Shown one piece after another: positions 5,601 to 53,954 of a stretch of DNA of 64,000 nucleotides. The notes beneath the pieces were generated by a model. It was not told where the DNA came from, did no database searches, and saw only the letters and a list, made by a program, of their open reading frames with translations. Within the stretch, counting starts at the first letter, position 1, and each line of letters opens with the position of its first letter. Both the position numbers and the translations under genes were made by a program. The DNA is from Cymodocea nodosa (taxonomy: Eukaryota > Streptophyta > Magnoliopsida > Alismatales > Cymodoceaceae), in assembly GCA_036874045.1 (NCBI GenBank), contig JAZBRI010000003.1:4166501-4230500 (forward strand), given 5' to 3'.

Positions 5601-8600
5601 ACTATTGGAACCACACTTATTAACTTCCTTCCATCTCGTAGTCATTGTGACAACCCCTACCAAAAGTTGTTTTGCCAATCATCATCTTATGCTCACCTTT
5701 GGACATTCAAGTGTCAAGTCTTTCCTTTCCTTGCCCTTATTAATAGCACAAGTTCTCCCTTCATTCCTCTCCATGAATATTTTTAAGGTATGATTCTCAT
5801 TATTTTGGTTATAAATATCTTGATCCCACCACCAATAAAATAATTTTGGCTCATCATGCTCGTTTTGATGAGCATTTATTTCCTTTTACTTAGTCTTCTT
5901 CCACCTCATCGCCGTTACCCTCCTCTCAATGGTGGCTTTCCCTTTTTCCCCCACGATCTTTGTTGAATCCTTCTCTCACCCAATTTGACTTGTCCTCCGA
6001 ACCTGACTCCACCACCACTCCTGCCTCATCAGCATTTGAACTTGATTCCAAGCCTTTCTACACCAACTTGGCTCCACCCGACTCTTTTCCCACTTTGACA
6101 CCTGCTTCCCTTGCGATCCTTCCATTGCAACCCTCTCCTCCTCTTGCTTGTGCCAACAACTAAGGGTGGATTATCATGACTTGGTAGGCCTTGCTTGACC
6201 TTCACTTTTTTCCATGCTCTACCCAATTTTTGTTTTGACAGAAAAATAGGAATTGCACACAGTTTCTATTCCTTTTCAATCACCATTATGGCATGCTACT
6301 ATGTTTGAAGAGTTCTTGGCCCTCCAAGACAATAACACTTGGCACCTTGTTCCATTTCAAATAGGCATGAGTGTTATTGGCTTGAAATGGATTTTTTGGA
6401 TAAAGTGTGGTAGTAATGACAAACATCTCAAAACACGACTTGTGGTTAAAGGCTTTCATCAACAAGAAGGTGTTGACTACTTTGCCACCTTTAGTTCAGT
6501 TGTTAAAGCAACAACCATTAGAGTGGTCTTGCCATTGCTACTAGTTATTGATGATCTTTTTGGCAACTTGATAACTCCAATGCCTTCCTTCATGGCGAGC
6601 TTACTGAAACTATCTACATGCAACAACCCACTGGTTTTATTGATCATACTCGCTCATCTCAACCCATTGATAAACTACTTGATCACTACTTCACCTTTGA
6701 ACTTCCACACAACAATAGGAATACCATTTTATCCAGTAGTTTTCCCACATTTCATTTTCTTAATAGTTTCTTTTATTTCCAAACTCTAATCCTTCTAAAG
6801 TAATTATATTTTTTATCCTTTGTATTGCTACTTAAATTTTGCATGTAAAATTTTCCTATGATAGATTTATTAAAAAATTTACTAAAATGCCTACATCATT
6901 TGTCTTTTATTAAAATTCTATCATCATTGTCTTTAAGACACTTAGATGGGTAGAGGCAATGATTTTGGCTCTCACCTCTAGCTTTGGCATAAAAACTCTT
7001 GTCTCTCCCCTTGAATGCCTTGATTACCTTAGTAAAAATGTAGTATTTCCTTGCTTTTCTATTGTTTTTCTCTACTCCAACAAGCCTTTGATAACTATAT
7101 TTGAAATTTAATGTTCTTATGTTCACTTAGTGTTGAGTAAACCTTGAATGTATTGGATATTTGATTGTGATGCATTGCTTACTATCTTTATTTCATTGAT
7201 GCATCATTAGAATGTGTGATTAAGAAGGAGATTTGGGTGAAAAGTCATATCATTACAAAAAGAGAAGAGTTTACATATATATGGGGAAATGGGTAACTAG
7301 GTTTTTAAATTGATCTTGAACCTAATTAACCTAGAATGACACACATAACTCACACTTCCTCTCAAGTTATTCTCCTTCCTCACCATCAACCAGAATGACA
7401 AACTAGAATGTGTACACCATCATCTCATTTATGGTTCAAACCAATTCTCCTTGCTATATGTAGATCCTAAAAAGTACAATGAACTAGAAAAAAGGTTATG
7501 GAACATAAAAGTTGTATGGTAATACTAATAGATAAATGATTCATAGAAAATTTAGAGACATAAAGGATTTGATCAAGTCAAATTTGGGACATGGCATGGG
7601 TAAAACCTCGACCAAAAACTCAACATGATTGTCCATCAACTATACTTACACTCTAAATGTTTGGTAGATGGTGTTAACAGGTTGAAAGGTTAGCATTACT
7701 TGTCATGTGATAGGATGTCTTTGAATTTGTAATCTAAGAACCTTCATCGTTAGCTACCATGGTCATATACTTGAAGTGGAAGCTAGTGCAGTAGTGATAG
7801 AGGACATAGTAGTCTATAATTGCATGAAGTATTTATAGTTAGCTTGTAAGATGGTGACCCTGGCTGAATCTGTTGTAGATAATGCACTTGTAAAGGTATC
7901 AACTGTGTTTGTGGGCACTTGAGTTCATGCAAGACCTTCATACTTCTCTCAACATCGCTTAAGGTGATGATTAGTCTGATCACAATAAGGGCAAAGTATG
8001 CATCTCTTTCTATCAGTTTGTCTGTCTTTGTTATTGCCTTTAGATTTTAGGACATCATTCCTTGATTGTTTCACAACCATAACAACAGCTTCTTCGTTTT
8101 GAGAACTTTTTGTAGATATCTTAAGAACATGAACAAAAAAAGAGTAGATCTCAAGTGGTTTCTCCATCAAGTATCTATCCACAGGCTTGTATCATTAAAT
8201 CAAATGGTAATCTTATTTGAAAAGTTGCAACATAAAGATTTTTCATAAACTATTTTAGTGTAGTAGCATTAGTGGTAAACAACTTGTGAACATCTAATTC
8301 TTCAAATAATGACCTCATTGTGTCATAGTATCCCTATAGAGTTTGTTTAGTTATACATAAAGAAAAAAACTGTTCATAAATCTCATACACTCGAGTAATG
8401 TTCTATTTGTGTTTGTACATTTTCTTTAAGGTGTCCCAAATGACTTTGGCTAATTAGAGCATCATAACTTCTCATGTTAAATTGAGTTCTATACTATTCT
8501 CTAACTATGTAACTACTATTCAGTCATTTACAAACTAATCGTTATATGTATCATCTTTGACATCAAAAGGAGGCTTTGTGAGATGATATCTCTTCTGTAA

Positions 8601-12689: not shown

Positions 12690-15240
12690 CAAATATAAGG
12701 TGTTTTCTTCTCTTTTGAAGCTCCAGCAATGACTTTGAGCTTTGGAATAACTCTAATTTCTTGGAACTTCTCCATGGTTTAAACAAGGTATGCTTTTGAT
12801 CTTTTCCCTTGTTTTTCAGGTTAGATCTTAGATTTTTATTTTAGATCTAAGATTATTTTCATTGTCTGCACATTTTTTGAATTTAAGAATTTTTTATGGT
12901 TTATTTTCTATTTTTTTCGACATTTTCATTTTTTTCATGCATCTATAGCAAAATTTAATGGATTTAGCTTAGGTTAGGTTGAATTTAAGGTTATTTAAAC
13001 TAGATACATATTTTTTGCAATTTTAAATTTCTAAAATGATTTTTTCTATTTCTCCACAAATATTGTAGTTATTAGGTGACATTAGATCTTCCTCGTGATG
13101 CATAATTTCTTGTTACAATCTTAATTTTTTAGAATTGTTTTTGAATTTTTGGAAATATTGAAGTTCTTGTTAAGTTAGGTTAGATCTTACCCTTTTAACT
13201 TACACTAAAGTCTCATTTGATTAGTTACATGATTTTCTTAAGCAACAATGACAACAGTTTGTATCATAATCTTATTATGTAGGGTTGACTACATGAATCT
13301 TTTTCTTCTATATATTTCTATGATCGAATCTTTGCTTAAATTGCATAAATTTAATTTTTTTCTCATAATTTCTAACCAAGTAGTTTTAATCCTTCATCTA
13401 CTTTTAGTTTTTTATATATTAATTAATTATCTTCTCTTAACTGGTGTGTCCTTTGATCTCTTAAGGATATGATCAAATTACTTAAGTTGATTTTCTCTTA
13501 TCTTATATTTAATTAGTGTAATTCCTACTTTATTTTTAATAAAATCATTTTTTAATTTATTCTTTATAATATTATCATTCCACTCATCAAGCATTCACAT
13601 TTCTACAATATTTACTGTTTATACATGACCATACTTTATAATCTAGCATTTTGAACCATAAAGTATAGTCATGCAAATAATAGTTTTTTAGAATTTTTTA
13701 AAAGTTTTAAGGACATCATCCTACCATATAATACTTCAGGAGTATTTCTCCATTTCCTCCATTTTATTTCAATGTTATGAATAACATTTATAATATTTTC
13801 ATTACTATTTATTATAAATTCTAAGTATTTAAAATTCTTATTTTTATGAATCTCATAGCCATCCTACTTTTCTCACGCAATTTTTCTTCAATTTTTGTTA
13901 ATTTACAGATTATTTCGTTGTGATTTTCGTTTTTACATGTATTTATAGAAGAATTTCGTTTTCTTTGAATTTCAGATTTTTTTAGTTTTTGTTGTTATTC
14001 TTTGAAATACTTATTATTAATTTATTGTTGAATGATATACACCTTATGTGTTTTTAGGCTAAAATATGTCTTACTTTCCTTCATTCCATAGTTCACAATG
14101 GACGTGAGAGTGATGAGCAACTTGGTGGAAGGAGTTGACCTAGGATGGTTATACATATTTTCAATGGATTATGACAAAAGGAAAAGTATTGTTGGAAGAT
14201 GACTGCTGGTGGTGTGACATGGTCGAAACATCTAGTAAGTAGTTACAACAATGTGATGAAGTGCAAGGAATGGCATTGCATTGATCAAGAAAGAGAAGTC
14301 TTGCTACCAAGCAAGGGGTTCCTAGATCTTGGTTCCTATAAGATTAAATTTCATGATATGAAGTGCCTTTTTAATATTAACTGAACATGGATTTCTATCT
14401 TGTAATTTAAATGTGACATATTCATAGAATAGATGCTCCAACGTTGAGGAGAAATTCTTTATAAGTCTTGTCTTAGATGGTCTCAACATTTGCTTTGAAA
14501 GAGACATTCAATCTTATTCATATTGTAAAGGAACAGATTGGGTATTTCGAGATTGAATTAGTGTTTATGCATTGCAATATGAAACTTTTGATGAAGCACA
14601 TCAGCAAGGAGTAGATAGTGGAAAGTTGTATCCAATTCATGTTGCATTTATCTACAGAAATTCAAGTGATAAGTTTCTAATGATGGAATGACTTGAAGAG
14701 AATAATGAGCTAATCTTGGATGAAGTATATTGCCACCCAAATGAAAAGGTTGCTAATTAAATGGGTGTAAATTTATAGGAACACATGACTTTGTTTGAAC
14801 ATTTTAGAGAGAGAACATCAAGATTAGGTGGTGCTAGTTATGATGGCACCATTATAGCACCAGATGTTGACAATTGTGGTGGAAGAGATGGAAATAGAGA
14901 ATAATTTGAAAGAGAAGATAATCAACAAGACAATTGCTTAGTCCCTTTACAAGAGAATAATATTTCATGCATGCTATGCAAGATGAGGATCATGAAACTA
15001 TGATATCATCTCAACATCAGCCATTCTATACCAATATAAGAGAAAAGGAAAAATATATAGATGCAAAAGAGACTATGTAGTCACTAGGGAGAGTGAGTGT
15101 AGATGATCTGTATGATTACACATCTTTTGAGAGTAGTTTTCATGCTTCAAATCACCAATCATTCAAGCTATCACATTTATGTAAGTTACTAGAGCCATGA
15201 ATTTGAATGGATGCAAGTGTATGAGGAAATGATGAAAAAA
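12690..15240 (+). repeat. Dispersed transposon-derived repeat, copy A (with nested RTE LINE)
   Basis: Stretches here align by eye with 34150-34750: ACTTTGAGCT...ATCACTCTAAT, GGTATGCTTT, AGATC(T/C)AAGATTATTTT, TTAGCTTAGGTTAGGTT and AGATACATATTTTTT occur in the same order in both. The coding-like FIYRNSSD(K/E) with (F/L)EEN(N/G) occurs near 14650 and 34660. Copy A is longer, with broken frames that include FRERTSRLGGASYDGT near 14805. It is split by an RTE-LINE fragment at about 13200-13880 that copy B lacks. I do not recognise the superfamily; the broken ORFs point to a transposon protein, not a host gene. Confidence 0.5.
13200..13880 (-). mobile_element. RTE-type LINE 3' fragment nested in repeat copy A
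   Basis: It aligns by eye along its whole length with 32095-32720. It shares the 3'-terminal AGGGT(T/C)G(A/G)CTACATGAATCTTTTTCT signature, read on the plus strand, that marks the end of plant RTE LINEs. It also shares the minus-strand sequence for KGKFYKAVI-type reverse-transcriptase C-terminal residues and the phrase around TTGAACCATAAAGTATAGT. Stops and frameshifts throughout. Confidence 0.65.
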
Positions 15241-18413: not shown

Positions 18414-19910
18414 TTAAATATTATGTTTGTTGTGATCCATTGTAACATATAAATTAAACATGTTATTTAAATTTTTTTCTACATTTTCTATAATTACATT
18501 AAGTTTTATATTTAAATACTTTTGTATCATAGTTAATACTTTTTCAATAACTTTTATTTTAATTCTAGGATCTAAACAAGCACTTAATGTATATAAAAAA
18601 TGTATATTATTCCAATACATTAAAAAGATTTCATTCATTTTTAGAATTGTTGGTGTAAAAAATGGATAATTATTAAAAATGTTTACAATATTATATAAAT
18701 GATGTATTTCATAAATAGAAGTAGAATAATATATTCTAGATAAATATTCAATTACATTATAAAATAGTTTTAAAATTTTAACAAAATAATTAACAATTGC
18801 AAAATCATTCTCATCTAAAGGTATTGTATTATCATTATTTCTACTATTATAATAAGTTTTTATAAGTTCTTTATAAGACAAATAATTTTTTAACATTAAA
18901 TATAAAGAACTTCATCTATGATGAGCATTAATGGTAAATGTCTTATGTGATAACTCAAATGAATCACATACAAAATTAAATTATTATTGTCGTTTTTCAT
19001 TACATGTAATATAAGTTAATGTAGTTCTAATATTTTCAAGAAAAAGTTTTGATTTTTCCAACATTAATTTAAAATATATGATTAACCATATGGTTTATAC
19101 ATCTTTGATGAAGTAAAGCAAAACCATGTAGTGAACTTAATCTACTTTTAAACATGAGAATAATTGTACTATTATTAGAAGCATTATCAAAATTAATATT
19201 ACCTATTTTTTTAATTCTAAAAAGATTAAAAATTTTAATAAAAAAATTTATATTTTAAGAATTATAAGGATAATTTATTCTTTTCAATCTTATTAATCTT
19301 TTTTTGTAAAATTTAATTATAATCAATAAAATGTGCAATAACATAATATATCTTACTTTAGTTCTTTTCTCATAAATATTAGATGTACACATTATTGAAG
19401 TATTTATTAGAATCTATTATATTAATTAGTTCTATTTAAGTTCACTATAAATTTGTTGTTGTTTAGAATATATATTTATAGATTTCTAACATATCTTTAT
19501 AAAATCTATTATAACAGTAACAACCTTTCTCATATTATAATGTCATTGTGAAATATTGCTTTTAGAATTAAAATTAAATTTAGTTTGAATTATTTTATTT
19601 TTTTCAAGATTTCTAAATTTACAATTAGTTAAATGTTTACTTAAATGACTTATATTGTTAGAAATCTTACAGAAGAAGTCTATGTTGCAAATGTGGTAAT
19701 ATACTTTTTCCATTGTAATATCATCCTTCATAGATTTCATTTTTATCATGAACTTCAATCATAAAGTAGTTCTTTTTTTAGGTTTAGTAGTAATATTTGA
19801 AGATGTTTCAATTTTTATGGTTTGGGATTGTTGTTTCGGTTGAAAAGTTTGAAATTTGTCATCATCGACGTTGCTGAATTAGTTGAAGTTATGCGTTATT
19901 TTATAGAATT
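18414..19910 (-). pseudogene. hAT transposase relic (BED finger and central domain)
   Basis: Two blocks in order on the minus strand identify a hAT transposase of the plant RICESLEEPER/Ac type. At 19758-19543 is a BED-like finger (CNIDFFC, then HLSKHLTNC). At 18896-18414 is the central region (FYNVIEYLSRIYYSTSIYE, then LSACLDPRIKIKVIE), matching the family's F..T..LS...YPT and ASVLDPR.K motifs. The C-terminal dimerisation domain is not visible, and stops separate the blocks. Extremely AT-rich, pointing to age. Not functional. Confidence 0.75.
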
Positions 19911-25701: not shown

Positions 25702-28700
25702 TCAGTTTGTGGACCCGACAAAGTCCAGCCCAGAAACGATGTGTTGGATGAGAGGCCTGTCCTTGGGGTTGCCACCCACGCAGCGACAGGCGATATCCAG
25801 GACATGCAGTAGTTGCTCCTCGTTCTGCTTGTCGTAGATGCAGGGGTCGAACACCACGGCGGCCCTGCCCTCCTCCTTCATCTGTAGCACCCATGTCACC
25901 AGTTCCCGTCGCCCTTTCCGTTGGCACATGTCCATGGGCCTCCTCCCGGTGAGGAGCTCCAGCAGGACCACGCCAAAGCTGTAGATGTCACCCTTGAAGG
26001 TGGCGACCGAGGTCTGCCCGTACTCCGGCGGGATGTAGCCCAGGGTGCCCACAAGGTCCGTGGTCACGTGGGTGTCGTAGGGGCGGATCAGCCTGGCGAG
26101 GCCGAAGTCCGCCAGGTGGGCCTTGAATTTCTCGTCGAGGAGGATGTTGCTGGACTTTATGTCGCGGTGGAGGATGTGAGGCTGGCAGGACTGGTGCAGG
26201 TACTGCAGCCCCCTAGCTGATCCCCGTGCGATCCCAAGTCTCGTGGCCCAGTCTAGTGCAGAAGCACCATCGTCTTGCCTCTCGTGCAGCCAGAAGTCCA
26301 AGCTTCCGTTCTCCATGTAGGAGTAGATGAGGATGCGGACGCTCCCCATCCTGCAGAACCCTTGGAGCATGACCAGGTTCTCGTGCTCGGCTCTGGAGAG
26401 CGTCTGGACCTCGGCTTGGAACTCCTTGTCCATCTGCCCGAAGTTCCCGGACAGGCGCTTGATGGCCACTTCCCTCCCGTCGGGGAACGTCCCCCTGTAC
26501 ACGAGGCCAAAACCGCCGCAGCCGATTATGTTCGCCTGGTCGAAATCGTTGGTGGCCGTCAGAATGTCGTTGATGGTGATGTCCTTGCCGTCCTTATTCT
26601 GGAACAGCACCGCCAAGGAAGGGCCGGAGTACTCAAGGAGCTCGTTGGCCTCCGTCTCCGCAGTCTCCGTGTTCTCCACCCTCCCGGAGTGAGCTTTCGA
26701 GAATACCAAGCAGAGGAGAGCAAGAACGATCACCGTCCCGCCGCTGATGGCCAACGACATGCCGATTATGAAACCCCTGCTCTTTCTCCGACCGCCAAAA
26801 GATGGAACAACTCCGGTTCCGTTGCATGGACGTTGACGGCTGACACAGAGGCCGGGATTCCCAGCGAAGCTGGAATCGGTGAACGTCGAGAACTGAACCC
26901 CGGTGGGAATGCGGCCGGACAGATTATTGTACGCGACGTTGAACGTTGACAGAAAGCTGAGATTGCCCAACGACGAAGGTATGGAGCCGAAGAGGTGATT
27001 ATACGACAAATCCAGTCGCTCTAAGCTGGTCATTCCCGACAACTCTTCGGGGATGGTTCCGGTGAGATTGTTGTGGGAGAGATCAAACACATGGAGCTTC
27101 TTGAGCTTTCTGAAGAGAGGGGAGATGGAGCCGACGAGGCTGTTGTGGCTGAGAAATAAGGACGGCGGGAAACTGCTGAGTTGATTATACCGCTGGCCCC
27201 CGTTTTCGTTCTTCCTGGTAAAGAAGGGAAGGTCGGCTGGGTGGGATTTTATGTTGGACTTGGCCCTGATCAAGCTCTTCATGCCAGTCAGCTCAACGGG
27301 TAGGTCACCGCTCAACGAGTTGTTGGACAGATCGAGGTAGAACAGCAAGTCCAGATTCCCGAACCACGTAGGGATGCTCCCACTCAAGCTGTTCCACGAC
27401 AGGTCCACCAGCTGGAGATTGCCGCAATGGCTCAGCCATGCCGGAACCGGACCCACGAGGCCGCAGCTGGCGACGACGAGGAGGCTGAGGTTCTTGAACC
27501 CTCGAATGCCGTGGGCGGACAAGGTCTCACCGTGGAAGGGATTCTTGGTGAGCACGATCGAAGACAGTCTGGGGCAATGCTGGAGGATCGTCAAGGCGGA
27601 GGAGATGTTGGAGAAGGAATTGTTGGAGAGCGACAGGAAGGAAAGAGCTTTCAGATTGCTGAAGCTCTCCGGGATCCCCCCGACGAGCCTGTTCCGAGCG
27701 AGGTTCAGCATCCTCAGCTCCGAGCAGGAGGAGAGGGCGTCGGGGATCACCCCGCTGAACAAGTTGGAACCGAGATCGATGGAGCTCAGCTTCTTCATTG
27801 CCTTGAAGTCGAGACCGATCTCGCCGTCGAGACTGTTGTTCTTCAATGTCAGCGACCGAAGTGCGGAGAGCTTCGACAGAGAAGAGGGCAAGACACCCCT
27901 CAGCCTGTTCGATGAAGCAGAGAAGGTTTCCAACTTGCTGAGGTTGCCGAACACGTCGGGAATTTCGCCGGAGAAGCTGTTGGAAGAGAGGTCCAGGGAA
28001 ACCAGATTCGAGAGGTTACCGATTCTCGCGCTCACCTCTCCACCGAGCAGATTTTCCTGAAGAGACAACTCCTTCAGCGATGCCAGGGCGAAGAGATCCT
28101 CCGGTACGGTTCCGGAGATACGATTGGAGTTCAGATTCAGAACATGCAGAGCACGGCAATTACCGAGACCAACCGGGAAGTCGCCGGATATCATGTTCGT
28201 CGAGAGCCTGAGTGATTGAATTGTAGGCGACGAATTACAGATGCTGCCAATGACGGCGCCTGTGAACCTGTTGGAAGAGACGTCGTAGTGGGTGAGGTTC
28301 GCCGATCCGGTGAGAAGAGGGTAGCTACCGTTGAAAGAATTGTTTGAGATGTTGAAGGAACGGATCGAAGGCAGGTAAGAATCCGGTGGAACACCGCCGG
28401 CTAATTGGTTGAGGCTGAGATCGAGGACTTGTAGCTGGGACAGACGGAACAGATCTGCCGGCAACGCTCCGGTGAGGGAATTGTTGGAAAGATCAAGAAT
28501 CCTCAGTCTTTTCAATCCAACCAGCGAATCGGAGACCGGCCCATTCAGTTCCTTGCCGGTGAGATTCAACTCCACCACCCTGACGACGCTCCCCAAACCA
28601 TTACAGACGATGCCCGGCCATCGGCAGCAGGAAGAATCATTGAGGGCGTTCCAACCTTGGATGGTCGGGGCCTTCAAGCCGGCCATGAAACCTCGGAGAG

Positions 28701-28860
28701 CCTTCAAATCCTTCGAATTGCATGTGGGCGCCGCTATCTTGGACTCTACCTCCTCCTCCTCCTCCTCCTCCTGGGAACACAAGGGGCGAAGTTGCATGAA
28801 GAAGACCAGAAGCAGCAGCAGCAGCAGCGTGCGAGGGGACGCCCACCTCCTCTTCCCCAT
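25702..28860 (-). CDS. PSKR1: Phytosulfokine receptor 1-like LRR receptor kinase, intact and intronless
   Basis: A 1052-aa plasma-membrane receptor expected to bind the sulfated pentapeptide phytosulfokine and promote cell growth. Domains in order: signal peptide (1-29, a Leu-rich core coded by CAG-type repeats on the opposite strand); a run of seven Glu (31-37); the paired-Cys LRR cap (CCRWPGIVC near 78-86); about 20 LRRs; a non-LRR island at about 530-570 (ADLPFFTRKNENGGQRYNQL); and the closing LRRs (GMTSLERLDLSYN, FNVAYNNLSGRIPTG). A transmembrane helix follows (about 697-719), then a kinase domain (about 777-1050) with GCGGFG at 780, Lys801 in VAIKRL, HRDIKSSN with Asp900 and DFGLAR with Asp918. 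All catalytic motifs are present, so an active Ser/Thr kinase is expected. Length, island domain and lack of introns fit PSKR1 rather than BRI1 or PSY1R. The ATG has a good context (GCCATGG). GC-rich throughout, unlike flanking DNA. Confidence 0.93.
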   Translation of the reverse strand: MGKRRWASPRTLLLLLLLVFFMQLRPLCSQEEEEEEEVESKIAAPTCNSKDLKALRGFMAGLKAPTIQGWNALNDSSCCRWPGIVCNGLGSVVRVVELNLTGKELNGPVSDSLVGLKRLRILDLSNNSLTGALPADLFRLSQLQVLDLSLNQLAGGVPPDSYLPSIRSFNISNNSFNGSYPLLTGSANLTHYDVSSNRFTGAVIGSICNSSPTIQSLRLSTNMISGDFPVGLGNCRALHVLNLNSNRISGTVPEDLFALASLKELSLQENLLGGEVSARIGNLSNLVSLDLSSNSFSGEIPDVFGNLSKLETFSASSNRLRGVLPSSLSKLSALRSLTLKNNSLDGEIGLDFKAMKKLSSIDLGSNLFSGVIPDALSSCSELRMLNLARNRLVGGIPESFSNLKALSFLSLSNNSFSNISSALTILQHCPRLSSIVLTKNPFHGETLSAHGIRGFKNLSLLVVASCGLVGPVPAWLSHCGNLQLVDLSWNSLSGSIPTWFGNLDLLFYLDLSNNSLSGDLPVELTGMKSLIRAKSNIKSHPADLPFFTRKNENGGQRYNQLSSFPPSLFLSHNSLVGSISPLFRKLKKLHVFDLSHNNLTGTIPEELSGMTSLERLDLSYNHLFGSIPSSLGNLSFLSTFNVAYNNLSGRIPTGVQFSTFTDSSFAGNPGLCVSRQRPCNGTGVVPSFGGRRKSRGFIIGMSLAISGGTVIVLALLCLVFSKAHSGRVENTETAETEANELLEYSGPSLAVLFQNKDGKDITINDILTATNDFDQANIIGCGGFGLVYRGTFPDGREVAIKRLSGNFGQMDKEFQAEVQTLSRAEHENLVMLQGFCRMGSVRILIYSYMENGSLDFWLHERQDDGASALDWATRLGIARGSARGLQYLHQSCQPHILHRDIKSSNILLDEKFKAHLADFGLARLIRPYDTHVTTDLVGTLGYIPPEYGQTSVATFKGDIYSFGVVLLELLTGRRPMDMCQRKGRRELVTWVLQMKEEGRAAVVFDPCIYDKQNEEQLLHVLDIACRCVGGNPKDRPLIQHIVSGLDFVGSTN

Positions 28861-29180
28861 GGCGAAGCGGACGCACCGGAAGAGAGTGCCGCCGGTATCA
28901 CTTCCGGTAGATCATCTGGAACTTCCTTCCTTCCCACCAAAGACACCCCTTACGCCGACATTAAAGGCTGAGGCACACTTGGATAAAGAGAACACACACG
29001 GCAGCCACAGCGAGAGAAGTCAGAAAGATGGAGTGGGAAAGAGAGGGTGAGGAAACGAGAAAGATTGGTTTGACCGCTTGGCTTTTGACTAATTAATACG
29101 TGTCCGTGTATGTATTATGTATATATATTATATATTGTGTGTGTGTGTGTGTGTCAAGTGTACGATACGAAACTTGGGGT
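28861..29180 (-). promoter_or_regulatory. 5' flank and likely core promoter of the PSKR1-like gene
   Basis: Read on the minus strand toward the ATG at 28860, the GC-rich leader (28861-29060) is preceded by an AT-rich alternating block (TATATATTATATAT at about 29120-29134) that could serve as a TATA element. A GT/AC dinucleotide repeat follows at 29136-29153. The placement is inferred only; no transcription start can be read. Confidence 0.3.
29136..29153. repeat. (GT)n microsatellite upstream of the PSKR1-like gene
   Basis: About nine uninterrupted GT units adjoin a TA-rich stretch, roughly 280 bp upstream of the receptor-kinase start codon. This type of repeat is prone to length change. Confidence 0.8.
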
Positions 29181-31041: not shown

Positions 31042-34000
31042 TTACTCGAAGAGATCAGGGTTCAGCCAGTCCCTGAAATTATCAAATAAAATAGTCAATA
31101 AGACGATCTTGCCGAAGGCATATGGCGATAAAAAGAGTTTTCGGATTGATATTACTTGCTAATGTCATCAAGATGATCATCAAAGTCAACAATATCTTGC
31201 CACTTCTCAGATGAAATATAATCCAACAAAATGGCGTTCGCAGATGGTTCTCTAAGTGTAAACAGGCAACTTCCATCACACCCTGCTTGTCGCCATGTTT
31301 TGGAAGAATCCCTTGTGTACAACTGAGAAAAGACACGAGAACCAACCCAAGGATTAAATCTCACTTTCTGGCTTAGGGAAATTGAAAACCAAGGAGACCT
31401 ATGTTAACAAGGCTCTTCGCCTATTATTTTCAAAACATCAGCAATAATATTTAGTTAGACTACACAATATATCTCGTATATTGATATAAATAGAAAGTTG
31501 GTAAATTCTGCTTTAGGGCAACTGCATAAATACTACATTTATTATGACCAAGAAATAATCCATACCAAAATCAGGAGCGCAACCAACCTCTATTTGGGAA
31601 GGAAGGAATGGAGTTGCAATTTCCATTTCTAAAGGGGTTTCCATTGCTAGGCAAGGGACGGTAAACTTATGTTCCAAGTATCACATATAATGTTTGTAAC
31701 CAACCCTTTATAGAAGAAAAGACAAATCTAAAAAACAAGACTAAAATAATTGTTGATAAATATCTAAAATATCCCATTATTGAGGCAAAAATAATATAAC
31801 ATGGAAGACAATGACTTGCGCATGTAACCTTTTATTAACACTTATATATTTCATTAAAAGAGAACAACATTTTATATTCAAAAGTAGATCAAATGCTAGT
31901 CAAATAGATTTTTTCTTATTAAGAAAATAGATCAGAAATGCACAACAAATGTAGCATTATATCATGACAAAGTTTAACCAAACAGCATAGACTACTAATA
32001 CTAGATGCTAGAATGAAGACTTGGAACAAAATAATAAAATACATATGAAATTATGAATTAGGTGAAGGAATCTACAACAATTTGAATCATAACCCCATTA
32101 CATGAGATCAATTACATGAATCTTTTTCTTCCAAACATTTCTATCAATGGTCAAATTTTTAATTAAATTACATAAATTTAAATTTTTTTGTAATTTTTAA
32201 CTAAGTAATTGTAAGCCTACCTCAACTTCTTTTATTTTCTTTTATACTAGTTAATTCTTCTCTCCTAACCAGTGTATTCCTTAGTTCCCTAAGGATATAA
32301 TCAAATCACTTAAACTGATTTTCTCTTACATTATCTTTAATTGGTGTAACTCTTACTCTACTTCTAATAAAAATATTTTTTAAGTTTATCCATTATAATA
32401 TTACCACTCATCTATCTAACATATGCTTCATATCAACACTAGTTTTTTTGTATATGGTCATATTTTATAGTCTAACATTTTGAGCCATAAAATATAGTTG
32501 GGTGAATAACAGCTTTATAAAATTTTCCTTTTAATTTTAAAGGTATTCTTCTATCACATAGCACTCTAGAACTACTTTTTCTCTTCAGCCATCTTACTTT
32601 AATACTATGAATAATATTTTCTATAATTTCACCATTTTTACTTATTATAAATCTTAAATATTTAAACTTTTTACTTTTATGAATCTTATGATCATCTAAA
32701 TATATATCTTCATCGTTATTTCTATTTCCGTTAAAATTACATTTCATATATTCAACTTTTAACCTATTCAATCTAAATCCTTCAGATTCTAAAGTATTCC
32801 TTCATAATTTTAATTTAAAACTAATTCTTTAGTTACTTTCATTAACTAAAATTATGTCAACAGCAAATAGTATACATCAAGATATTTCTCTTTAAATTTT
32901 TTTAGTTATTTTATCTATAACCAAGGTGAACAAATATGGACATAGTGAGGATACCTAATGTAAATTTATGTTTATTGGAAATTTTTTATGTTCTCTTATA
33001 ATTTTAATACTAATAACCACTCTTTCATATATGTCTTTTATAATATTAATATATCCAATGAGTACTACCTTTCTTTCTAAAACCCATCACAATATATGTC
33101 TAAGTGTTCTATCATAATCTTTTTCTGAATAAATGAAAACCATATAGATGTCCTTTTTTAACATTAAATTTTTTTACTAATTGTCTAAGTAAATGAACAG
33201 CTTTCATTGTTAGCCCACTTGATATAAACCCAAATTGATTTTCTATGATTTTAGTTATGTCTTAACATTACTCAATTATCATTCATAGTGTGACTTATTA
33301 AGTTGATACCACAATAATTATTACAATTCTTTATATCTCCCTTTTTCTTAAATAGAGGCATTAAAAAACTCTTTCTCGGTTCATTTAACACCTTCTTTGT
33401 CTTTAAAAATATATTAAAAAACTTAGTTAACTATTTAATCTCTACTTCACCCATGTACTCCTGCACAATAAGAATATCATCCGATCTAATAGCTTTCCTA
33501 CATTTTATTTTCTTAATTGCTTCATTTACCTAGAAACTATTAATTCTTCCAAAATAATAATTTATATTCTTTGTACTACTGCCCAAATTTTGCATGTAAA
33601 AGTTTCTTATGATAAATTCATAAAAAAATTTAGTAAAATATCTACACATCTATATTTTACTAAAACTCTACAATCCTCATAAACTTAAATTAAATCTCTA
33701 GCTTTTTCTTTCTTTTGCCTTTTTCTTTCTCCAGGCGAAGGAATTTAAAGATTGAAAATAAATATAGTTGGAGATAAAAATGTAAAAAAGGTAGAAAATT
33801 AGAATTAGATGGAGAAACAAATCATGCACAAAATGAGAAAAACATTTGCATTAAAATCATAACCAAGAAAATTTTAAGTGAACTCAACAGGATAGAATGA
33901 CAAGTTAAGCATGGTGCCCTGTTTCAATCTGTGTCACCAAAATTTCAGTGATATGGATTGATTGTTGTATTGACTAATCCAATAACGACATGTTTATTGA

Positions 34001-37000
34001 TTTCAGACAAGTATTAGGCGATATTGTGATCCATATCAGTCAAATCAACTGATATTGGTCATTTTTGTGCTTTCAAGTAATGCTATTGTCAATACGGATG
34101 AAATTTCCACTGAAATTGTCAAAACATTAATGACAAGGTGAGAACCTATAAGCTCCTGCTACACCAAGATATTTTCTTTTGGACTAAATCAGCAAGAACT
34201 TTGAGCTCCAGAATCACTCTAATCTTCTTGGATCTACTAATCTTGTACAATGTATGCTTTCAGTCCATTTTCCTCTTATTCAAGGTTAAATTTCAGCCTT
34301 TTGTATTAGATCCAAGATTATTTTTCCTAGTTAAACATAGTTTTTGTAATTTATGTATTTTACACAGTTAAATTTTTGGGTTTTTTTTCACACTTTTTGG
34401 TTGTTCATGTGTTCATAACAAAAAGTTAATAGATTTAGCATAGGTTAGGTTAAATCTAAGGTAGATACATATTTTTTTTACAATTTTAAAATTTTCAGAT
34501 TTTTTTTCTATTTTTCAAGAAATATTGTTGTTACTAGGTGCAATTCATTAGGTCTTTTGCATAATAGATTAGATCTTATGTTATTTAGAATTTTTTGTAA
34601 TTTTCATTTTTACATGCATTTATAGAAAAAAGATTGAATCCAATTGATATTGCATTTATATACAAAAATTCAAGTGATGAAGACCCAATGATCGAATGAT
34701 TTGAAGAGAATGGTAAGCTGGTTTTGGGTAAAGCCAAGACTAGTCACTCAAGTAACAACAATGCCATAATAAAAGTTGAAATTCAACATTCCAATTGTTG
34801 GAAAATATAATCCCATGTAAACTAATTCAAAGATAAAAATGAGTTAATCTAGAAAATAAACTAATTATAGCTAATTGATTTTGATTTAGATGTCTATATT
34901 TCAACATGGTATCAAAGCAAAGAGATTCTAGCAAGTTCACTTGAAAAAATATTTAAAGGACCTGAAAAAGGACACAAATGAGAGGAAGTGTTGGAAACTA
35001 TAATCCCACATGAACTAACTAAAAGATAAGAATTAATTAGTATAGAAAAGGACCTCTACACTTATTGATAATTGATTTTGAGGTAGATGCTCATATTTTA
35101 ACACCAACAATTTCAAAAGAATGTAAACATCATCTGGAAATCCCAGATGATTAAAAATGAATCCAGATGTCAAAGGAGAAAAAGAAAATTACTGTCACAC
35201 TAACTAATAACAAGTTCTAATTGAAATCTACAAGTAATATTTTCATGTCAAATGATAACTTTATAAAGCTTAGAAATATGTTCAATGGGAGATATGAAGT
35301 GCAAGAACAAAATTTATTTGAAATACATTATACAAGAAGCTATTTTTCCATAGAATCCCAACATCAAAACCATGTCAACGGTAGTTCCTTTGATGCTTGC
35401 TCTTGCGTAAAAGTTATTACTAAAGCAACATGAAGCGACTAATATCAAATTAGGCTTAAATATAGACCCAGTTTCCAACATGGGGCTATTTTTCAACACC
35501 CCTTTATTTATGAAATTTTTTAAGGTCCTACAAGTGGTCATTATTTTTGAGTTAAGTAAATCTGTGAAGACTTGAATCCAGGCCAAGTCTCATTCCACTT
35601 TCCAATATGGGATTGTTTTGACAAAATCTAATCAATTAAACCCTCTTGTAACTTCAACAATGATTGTGGGGTGAGATATTTTGCTTATTTAAGAACCTTT
35701 GGGGATTTTCAATCCCTACAAAGGTCAAAACACTAACTCGGATACCTCTCCAAAATAATACCCTTACAAAGGTTAATTAAGAAAACAAATGTTGGGTGAG
35801 AAATCCTACTTGCAATCAATATTTGCACAAGGTTGAATTTGGACAACAACTCCTCCTAAGTTGTCCTTTTGCTAAGTTTCTTTAGAATTTTGTTTAAATT
35901 GTCAACTCACTATTTTTCAAAAGGAACATTTGAACTTCATTAGTTCATCACATATTCTCATCAATGAAGTTCTATTTACACAGTTAAAGATAACAAAAAA
36001 ATTTGAAATTTCATGATCTTACATAGAATATAGTGATGGATAGAAATAGATGAAGGTTTATTTTGTTGTTGCCATTGAGTAATTATTTTTGTATCAATTT
36101 TATAATATTCAACTTTGTATTAAGTAGTGTTGTTGACAAGGCAGAGTGTCCTATCTCATGTGCCTGGGCGATGCCATGCAAGTGAGTTAGTACCAAGACG
36201 TGCTAACGTGGTGGACCCCAATTGAGATGACAAGAGAGGTGATAACTTTAGAGACCCCATCACGCTACATGAAGTGAGCCTTCTTAAAGATAGACAACCA
36301 ACACAAAATGAGAAAGAATTCAGTGAAAATATTTGATTTTGTTTGAGTTGAGAAGATTTGAAATTACATAATCTAATGAAGAACTTAGTGGAGGGAAACA
36401 AATGGAAAGAAGAAAATGTATTTTGCTTCTGGAGAAAGATTTCTTGTTCTTTTTCTGAGTCTCTCTTTTTTCGAATCTAAGGATATAATTATCACCATAG
36501 GTTTGGCATTGTCTCTTTGTTTTGGATTTTCTGGGATATGCACTTTAAGAGGTTTGTTACTTTGCTGTTCGTATGCTACCGTATGGACGATTGTATGATC
36601 TCCCGGAACCTTGCTTTTTTTTTTTATATTTCAACTGACTTGTTATCACAAGAATCATCATATTGCTGATGCAACAACTCCTTGATCACAGTATAACTTT
36701 AAGTGACTCAAAAAGCAGAAAGCATCAGTCTGACATCGGAAAAATTCAAACGAAACATAAAGGAAATTTTTACCAAAAAAAAAAAACAGAAAGGCAATTC
36801 GCAGGACATTTCTTACCTGCAAAACTGGCTCCCTGTCCTTTTCCTTCGGCAAAGACCCGAGTTTCTTGTTGTCCAACTGCATATGCAATCCAAAATAGAA
36901 GAACATATTCATCAAAAGGAAAATGAAAACATAAATATATAGACAATGACAGCACCGGTGCAAACCAAGAGCACAGCAGCACGAGGGAAGTATCTGAAGA

Positions 37001-37413
37001 TGTGATCCCCAATCTTCCTGGCAGCGTTTCCGAGATCGTAATCGTCGAATCTTTCATTAGCATGGTAATACCCTACAATGCTTAACCCCTCCACCCCGAA
37101 GTGTTCTTCCACCTGCAGCAGCAGACCATCGCAGACAGACACCGTAAGCCCTAGTAGAAGAATTCCGGGAACAGGTACTTGGAGCAGAAGCGTAGACGGA
37201 GAGTACTTGAATGAGGGCGAGCTCGAGGGCGGGGAGGAGACCGATCTGGGAGTGGGAGAGCGGAACAGCCTCGGTGATGTGGACGGTAGCATCGTCGTCG
37301 AGGAGGCGGCCGACGAGGAGGCCGTTGACGGCGGAGGTCCTGTACTTGAGGGCGTGGAGGACGAGCTTTAGGTAAGCGCTCTGCGCAATCTCGTACTTGC
37401 ACTCGCCTCCCAT
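31042..37413 (-). CDS. EMC8/9: ER membrane protein complex subunit 8/9 homologue (UPF0172), five exons
   Basis: Exons on the minus strand: 37413-37207, 37112-36966, 36876-36817, 31322-31156 and 31072-31042. All introns are GT..AG, and the joins keep frame to give 203 aa, the usual family length (about 200). The sequence matches the plant member from start (MGGECKYEIAQSAYLKLVLH) through NGLLVGRL, LSIVGYYHANERFDD and LLDNKKL to SANAILLDYISSEKWQDI and the terminal DWLNPDLFE. It is an MPN/JAMM-fold protein lacking the metal-binding set of active deubiquitinases. Family members form part of the cytosolic side of the EMC, the ER insertase for multipass and tail-anchored proteins. Introns 1, 2 and 4 are 94, 89 and 83 bp, whereas intron 3 is 5494 bp and carries an RTE LINE and a TRIM. 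The first exon is GC-rich. The last exon is only 31 bp and would be missed by simple ORF calling. Confidence 0.93.
32090..33690 (-). mobile_element. RTE-type LINE, longest copy in the window, 5' truncated
   Basis: Minus-strand translation at 32771-32472 gives the C-terminal reverse-transcriptase region of plant RTE LINEs: EYMKCNF, HKSKKFKYL, KNGEII, VRWLKRKSSSRVLCDRRIPL and KLKGKFYKAVIHPTIFYGSKC. These match the family's EYM.C.F, KFRYLGS, LCD.K.PLKLKGKFY.T..RP and YG.EC motifs. Further decayed RT lies up to about 33690, and the 3' terminus (CTACATGAATCTTTTTCT near 32115) is the family's end signature. Stops follow YGSKC. It lies in sense orientation in EMC8/9 intron 3. Confidence 0.75.
34060..34750 (+). 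repeat. Dispersed transposon-derived repeat, copy B
   Basis: Shorter relative of 12690-14760 (see copy A), without the nested LINE and with an internal deletion joining the TTAGGTTAAATCTAAGG region to the FIYKNSSDED-coding region near 34660. Located in EMC8/9 intron 3. Confidence 0.5.
34796..35103 (+). mobile_element. TRIM: complete 308-bp miniature LTR retrotransposon
   Basis: LTR1 (34796-34906, 111 bp) and LTR2 (34989-35103, 115 bp) both start TGTTGGAAA(A/C)TATAATCCCA and end in AACA. The interior is only 82 bp: a perfect primer-site start TGGTATCAAAGC at 34907, a short spacer, and the polypurine tract AATGAGAGGAAG directly before LTR2. The flanks CCAAT (34791-34795) and CCAAC (35104-35108) form a target duplication with one mismatch. 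The layout matches terminal-repeat retrotransposons in miniature, which carry only the cis signals for reverse transcription. It is antisense to EMC8/9 within intron 3. Confidence 0.88.
35110..36816 (-). other. Remaining EMC8/9 intron 3 sequence
   Basis: Between the TRIM and exon 3 I see no coding motif. Around 36130-36250 is a short GC-richer piece (GTGCCTGGGCGATGCC and neighbours), possibly a decayed repeat. Confidence 0.35.
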
Positions 37414-52588: not shown

Positions 52589-53435
52589 GAAATTTTAACG
52601 TGTTTGTGCATAATAGGAAATGATGAGAAATAAAATTTTTAATAATTTTTGAAATAGTAAATAATAGTACAACTTGAAAGTAATATTTTAAATAATATAG
52701 TATAAATTAATTATATTTTAAGTAATATAGTATAATATAATATATAGTACACAATTATTTTGTTATGAATAATCTTTTCATCACAAACATACAATGCAAA
52801 CATACAAAGATACATATAACTAATTTCTTATGCTTGCAATGGTGAAGAAAATAAAATATATCAAAAGGATAATAATGTAGTATAATTATTTGTAATTAAT
52901 TTATTGATTAAGTTTTTAATTAATGAATTAAAATAATTAGTTAAAATGTAATTAATTAATTACATTAATCAATTAACAAGGTATATAAGTTTTATCTAAA
53001 ATATTTAATTTTTATCTTGAATAATTAGATCATTCATATATTTCTATCTCACAAATGTTTATCTTCATCCATTTTTCATTTTTCCTCATTTCTCTTAAAA
53101 GTTTTATTTTGTTTCAATATTTCTCACAAATAACTTTTATTTTTTTTATCAAAAGGTTTTTTTTTCACAGTCAACTGTCCATCTTCTCTGGCAACGTTCG
53201 CTCGAGCAGCGAGCCTAAGTGGCGAGCGGGAGCGACGAGCGTTGGCAGTAGCTACTGTTGGAGTTGCGAACGTTTTGAGGGTTTTTAGGGAATGATTTCC
53301 TGACCTTACCGAAGAGAGGAGTTGGGAAATCATCTCCCAATGATCTTTTTATATGGGGAAAACCTTGAAAAGGTATTTCCCAAGACTATCTTTCCCAAGC
53401 TTTCCTAGTATTGTTGGGAAGCATAAACCCTCCCC
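52589..53435. repeat. Second, 5'-truncated tandem copy of the Harbinger-like element
   Basis: From GAAATTTTAA at 52589 the sequence repeats 51509 onward (offset 1080 bp): AATAGTACAACTTGAAA, ATATAGTACACAATTATTTTG, AAAGGATAATAATGTAG, CTCACAAATAACTTTTAT and the GC-rich block occur in the same order. It ends AAGCATAAACCCTCCCC. It has an insertion (ATACATATAACTAATTTC region near 52810) and a much shorter minisatellite. Confidence 0.75.
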
Positions 53436-53954
53436 TGCAATCCACACACGACTATATGCACATTCATCTCTCTCTTATTCTCCTCTACCCGATCAGTTGG
53501 CACACTTGGCACCCCTCAAAGGCCTTAATAAAGGCTCAAGGAGCTTCCAACTCTCCCTTCTCCCACTTGGGGACATGGAAAGCGACCTAGAAATGTCCTT
53601 AAAATTAATCTTACTTTCTTGGGAATTGTCTCCATGGCCCCAAAAAGCTTGACTAAAACCATCATAGCCTCTAACTTTGATTAATGCTGGGAAGCACAAA
53701 CCCTCCCCTGCAATCCACACATGACTATATGCACATTCATCTCTCTCTTATTCTCCTTTACTCGATTAGTTGGCACACTTGACACCCCTTAAAGGTCTTA
53801 ATAGAGGCTCAAGGAGCTTCCAACACTCCCTTCTCCCACTTGGGGACATGGAAAGCGACCTAGAAATGTTCTCAAAATTAATCTCACTTTCTTGGGAGTT
53901 GTCTCCATGGCCCTAAAAAGCTTGACTAAAACCATCATAGCCTTTAACTTTGAT
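53415..53954. repeat. Tandem duplication, 273-bp unit, two copies
   Basis: TGGGAAGCA(T/C)AAACCCTCCC begins at 53415 and 53688. Both copies continue almost identically through GACTATATGCACATTCATC, GGAGCTTCCAAC and CTTGACTAAAACCATCATAG. Each unit starts with the terminal sequence of the preceding Harbinger-like copy, so the duplication includes the element border. Confidence 0.85.

Follow-up and report, generated by a model that had tools for sequence, protein, structure and literature searches.

A 308-bp element lies in an intron of the EMC8/9 gene

The window, by which we mean the whole 64-kb stretch of DNA that was analysed, carries on its minus strand an EMC8/9 gene of five exons, the limits of which were set by consensus GT/AG ends and the reading frame. 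When joined, these exons encode 203 residues that match human-type ER membrane complex (EMC) subunits 9 (E 4e-28) and 8 (E 3e-23), both solved structures. EMC8/9 is a housekeeping gene. Its third intron contains, between exons 3 and 4 and antisense to the gene, a short element in which two direct repeats flank a small interior. The features of the gene and of the element are as follows.

31042..31072, minus strand: EMC8/9 exon 5, with the stop codon
31156..31322, minus strand: EMC8/9 exon 4
31323..36816, minus strand: EMC8/9 intron 3, 5,494 bp, ends from GT/AG and frame
34791..34795, unstranded: 5' target-site duplication CCAAT, four of five bases matching 35104-35108
34796..35103: whole element, 308 bp, two direct repeats around an interior
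34796..34906, plus strand: 5' LTR, 111 bp, TGTTGG...TTCAACA, from self-comparison and LTR profile
34907..34988, plus strand: interior, 82 bp, non-coding
34907..34919, plus strand: primer-binding site TGGTATCAAAGCA, directly after the 5' LTR, from base counts over 40 aligned copies
34980..34988, plus strand: polypurine tract GAGAGGAAG, adjoining the 3' LTR
34989..35103, plus strand: 3' LTR, 115 bp, with USE-like ATCCCACATGA (2 mismatches) and TATA-like TATAGAAAA
35104..35108, unstranded: 3' target-site duplication CCAAC, one C/T difference from CCAAT
36817..36876, minus strand: EMC8/9 exon 3
36966..37112, minus strand: EMC8/9 exon 2, open frame matching PF03665
37207..37413, minus strand: EMC8/9 exon 1, open frame matching PF03665

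The first-pass annotation had placed a TRIM inside the EMC8/9 gene, with a 111-bp and a 115-bp LTR, 82 bp of interior and a near-perfect 5-bp target duplication. Its coordinates and lengths proved exact, and the mapping of the five exons makes the location intronic. Self-comparison of the whole window paired the two LTRs with E = 5e-17, far beyond chance. The 5' LTR aligned with positions 1-115 of the 115 positions of an LTR profile (E 6.6e-21), which includes this same LTR, and a search of the 64-kb window with the profile revealed no further copy besides 34796-35103. The features that characterise a TRIM are present: the LTRs are direct repeats with TG...CA ends within a total of 308 bp, well under 1.5 kb, the primer site and the polypurine tract stand at the LTR borders, and the 82-bp interior encodes no retrotransposon protein. 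The primer site is presumably of the Met-tRNA type, with 11 of its 13 bases matching the initiator-Met complement. Base counts over the 40 aligned copies showed that purines also predominate at the polypurine-tract positions elsewhere in the family.

The same EMC8/9 intron also contains, on the minus strand at 32475-33430, open frames that we take to resemble a broken plant LINE polymerase; the part at 32475-32801 gave no Pfam match. In the self-comparison of the window, 32074-32689 was 74% identical to 13251-13856.

Copies of the element are dispersed over the genome

The copy number was studied in the assembly that contains the window, 28 contigs totalling 374.6 Mb, whose gene content and snRNA promoters suggest a flowering plant. 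With the window unit as query at least 41 genome matches were obtained (best 40 of 146 candidates scored), while the sister copy L009 gave at least 45 (best 40 of 232) and the L009 LTR at least 51 (best 40 of 167). Including the window, 75 regions merged to at least 74 distinct places on 21 of the 28 contigs; among them are arrays as well as full copies, and in two cases a solo LTR bears a target duplication. A genome-wide count had been proposed in the first-pass annotation as the way to tell a mobile family from a single-copy unit, and by this count the unit is multicopy.

Among 17 further LTR places, eight have two LTRs and nine have one. L128 and L124 look like true solo LTRs, with flanks that match at 5/5 and 4/5 bases, respectively, while the flanks of the single LTRs L127, L135 and L138 do not match. 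L126, L133, L137, L046 and L047 were considered as lone LTRs and rejected because the TRIM interior is present (on one side in L126, L133 and L137), so that these are copies in which the 5' LTR has decayed or been lost. Array L010 consists of three LTRs about 200 bp apart, with GCCAT on both sides of the whole array. Tandem TRIM arrays are already known from the portions consulted of PMC4717578. In a separate observation, L032 and L034 are 91% identical, have similar flanks and lack a target duplication; it looks as though they had been carried along in the copying of a larger repeat.

Target duplications and empty sites

In a first set of copies, the flanking 5-mers matched at four or five of five bases in 18 of 27 cases; these 27, which include the window copy, are the copies of the 40 that were aligned through both edges. 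A wider examination of 57 places provided 48 that were edge-complete with at least two LTRs, and here 30 matched at four or five of five flank bases. As a control for chance, the same degree of matching was found in 4.2% of 20,000 mismatched flank pairs. At 18 of the 48 edge-complete places at most three flank bases match, which we read as decay or rearrangement.

Empty sites were found for L009. Its joined flanks, used as query, gave 42 matches, of which 12 cross the junction uninterrupted. Six of these 12 sites were aligned and the insert is absent from all of them. Three keep TTATCTCTTATA exactly, with a single TATCT; in L145 one base is different, and L146 and L141 have diverged further. 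These sites show directly that insertion of the family generates a 5-bp duplication. For the window copy, no empty site was found in its own genome, where its joined flanks match only themselves at the junction. About 60 bp upstream of the insertion there is an older repeat.

Age of the window copy and of its family

Over 111 ungapped sites, the two LTRs of the window copy agree in 79.3% (K2P 0.245). This corresponds to an age of 9.4 My at 1.3e-8 substitutions/site/year, and of 18.8 My at the alternative rate of 6.5e-9 substitutions/site/year, both of which are probably overestimates. The faster rate follows PMC3281118, as given in the portions consulted. Base composition bears on these dates: C and G positions deviate from the majority in 31% and 30% of cases, three times as often as A (10%) and T (9%), an excess that is expected of methylation decay and that probably makes the dates too old.

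The family as a whole has a similar appearance, with a median LTR-LTR identity of 76.1% in 40 copies. For 55 multi-LTR places the median was 76.3%, where the first LTR was compared with the last and a few partial or array LTRs were included that lower the value. The best pair seen, in L009, reached 86.0%, in a sample of best matches to old query copies; younger copies may therefore exist, although none was seen. The earlier suggestion that the family moved fairly recently does not sit with these identities: since no young LTR pair was seen, recent movement is unsupported, though possible for the family. The element in the window is one aged copy that has since decayed.

Relation to known TRIMs

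Structure, target duplications and multicopy dispersal agree with the TRIM identity that the first-pass annotation had assigned. We consider it nearly certain that the unit belongs to the TRIMs (terminal-repeat retrotransposons in miniature) as an aged copy: a non-autonomous LTR retrotransposon measuring about 0.31 kb that is presumably moved by a helper and makes a 5-bp target duplication. The TRIM landscape of 48 plant genomes and 156 families, as far as set out in the consulted parts of PMC4717578, is among the closest comparisons. The flowering-plant TRIMs described there share with the unit the non-coding sequence, the LTR pair, the primer site and the purine tract, as well as the 5-bp target duplication, the tandem arrays and the presence of copies in genes. 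The earlier description of the unit as one of the smallest possible LTR retrotransposons was roughly fair; smaller ones have been published, namely SMART (FRetro129) with 292 bp (PMC3281118, in part) and the 233-bp TRIM CcaRetroS9 (PMC4717578, in part).

Another close comparison is SMART, a 292-bp LTR retrotransposon of grasses. According to the portions consulted of PMC3281118, SMART shares with the unit a size of about 0.3 kb, TGTT...AACA LTR ends, a 5-bp target duplication and solo LTRs, and it is frequent in introns, where the unit is also located. Its LTRs of 85 bp and interior of 122 bp, however, set it apart by dimensions from the 111-115 bp and 82 bp measured here, and in the same portions of PMC3281118 SMART is restricted to grasses. 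We therefore regard membership of the unit in SMART as very unlikely.

Even less probable is that the unit is a TRIM with an internal Pol III promoter, of the kind found in Cassandra (5S rRNA) and Helenus (tRNA). In size and layout Helenus-1_SMo comes close, with an LTR of 120 bp, an interior of 85 bp and a 5-bp duplication (PMC10886601, in the portions consulted). The same portions describe tRNA-like sequence in Helenus LTRs, whereas the LTRs here show none, and present Cassandra as a small non-autonomous LTR element like the unit, but of 565-860 bp and with 5S-like LTRs. The tRNA- or 5S-derived LTR sequence that is the feature of Helenus, Cassandra and Ajax (TRIMp3) was not encountered in 110 LTRs of the family: ARAGORN reported tRNA matches in none of them, and B-box-like and 5S-like matches were not above flank controls. 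An A-box-like pattern occurred on the plus strand of 84/110 LTRs versus 157/228 controls and on the minus strand of 100/110 versus 166/228, a slight excess of a pattern too loose to mean much.

Finally, a pair of diverged direct repeats some 193 bp from each other in an AT-rich intron could at first sight pass for the product of a local tandem duplication that is not mobile, but this reading was rejected as virtually impossible because repeats and interior are dispersed on 21 of 28 contigs with target duplications, and because the sister copy L009 has empty sites.

The unit is thus best described as a TRIM of a known plant type, one aged copy of a dispersed family, and is essentially ordinary. 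Set against published families by description, the family is either new within the TRIMs or already named under another label. Its contribution, mainly of value for annotation, is a small, old TRIM family in a plant-like genome, for which target duplications and empty sites have been measured, and it shows that 0.3-kb elements of such kind prove real under a genome-wide check.

Proposed propagation by a helper element

For the transcription, the priming tRNA and the helper enzymes of this TRIM family we infer the following course. The anatomy agrees with the usual way in which TRIMs replicate. The LTR promoter would give rise to an RNA on which the tRNA-type site takes the primer, and this RNA would be copied by the reverse transcriptase of a putative helper, probably of the Copia type, whose integrase would insert the product with a 5-bp target duplication. 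The window copy would in this manner have landed antisense in the EMC8/9 intron, from which it would be spliced out together with the intron, and would then have decayed.

A helper, which would be a longer element with a matching LTR or interior and a reverse transcriptase, was not seen among the at least 74 places. At L131 (see also L140), the one case of a different downstream sequence, a family LTR and a primer-like site are followed by different sequence, and the next 1.4 kb contain no long open frame. According to the portions consulted of PMC4717578, longer relatives were found for only 11 of the 289 TRIM subfamilies, so that the absence of a helper here is not unusual.

Many LTRs carry a USE-like box of the snRNA type

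The majority LTR contains GTCCCACATGG, one mismatch away from RTCCCACATCG, which we take to be the plant snRNA upstream element (USE), together with the TATA-like box listed above for the window copy. A related form of the USE appears in the consulted portions of PMC6181210. With up to two mismatches, the USE was present in 15 of 33 LTRs chosen for alignment, compared with 0.65% of dinucleotide shuffles; because these LTRs share descent, the 15 matches amount to one event rather than 15. Among 110 LTRs, 43 have a USE with at most two mismatches, 29 have one with three mismatches and 38 have none, while a TATA-like box with no or one mismatch was found in 85. Where both boxes were found (68 LTRs), the gap between them was 27 bp in 38 cases and 25-29 bp in 65. 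The boxes of the window copy are decayed, with 4 and 2 mismatches, and no USE match with at most one mismatch exists anywhere in the 64-kb window.

The spacing of the boxes was compared with that in snRNA genes. Two host U2 genes have a perfect USE and a 33-bp gap to TATAAAA (the Pol II rule), and the gap in barley U3, which is read by Pol III, is 25 bp (PMC6181210, in the portions consulted). The 27-bp gap of the LTRs fits neither rule exactly and is nearer to that of Pol III. The four best host U6 genes (L048-L051) have their USE at -64/-65 and no clear TATA at the usual place.

On this basis the TRIM LTR might use an external promoter of the snRNA-gene type, composed of USE and TATA-like box and, in view of the small distance between them, perhaps transcribed by Pol III, although we think this unlikely. 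Similar boxes occur in the LTRs of plant Copia elements, which are Pol II elements, and this counts against the snRNA-type reading, as does the decay of the boxes in the window copy. If true, the snRNA-type reading would place another class of TRIM promoter alongside the internal ones derived from tRNA and 5S sequence, and would explain how so small an element could have a complete promoter without an internal small-RNA gene. Searches of the literature for TRIM or LTR combined with snRNA promoters found nothing relevant, and searches for the LTR word strings returned no transposon paper by title.

Other features of the window

Outside the EMC8/9 gene, 25705-28911 on the minus strand holds a large LRR receptor kinase gene, its long frame uninterrupted by introns, with LRR, LRRNT_2 and kinase Pfam matches, which we presume to be PSKR-like. 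Remnants of other mobile elements were found on the plus strand at 6250-6786, where a Copia polymerase is recognisable (RVT_2, E 5.5e-11), and on the minus strand at 18417-18911, which resembles a hAT transposase (E 3.2e-10). A 273-bp unit occurs as a tandem pair, with 94% matches, at 53415-53954.
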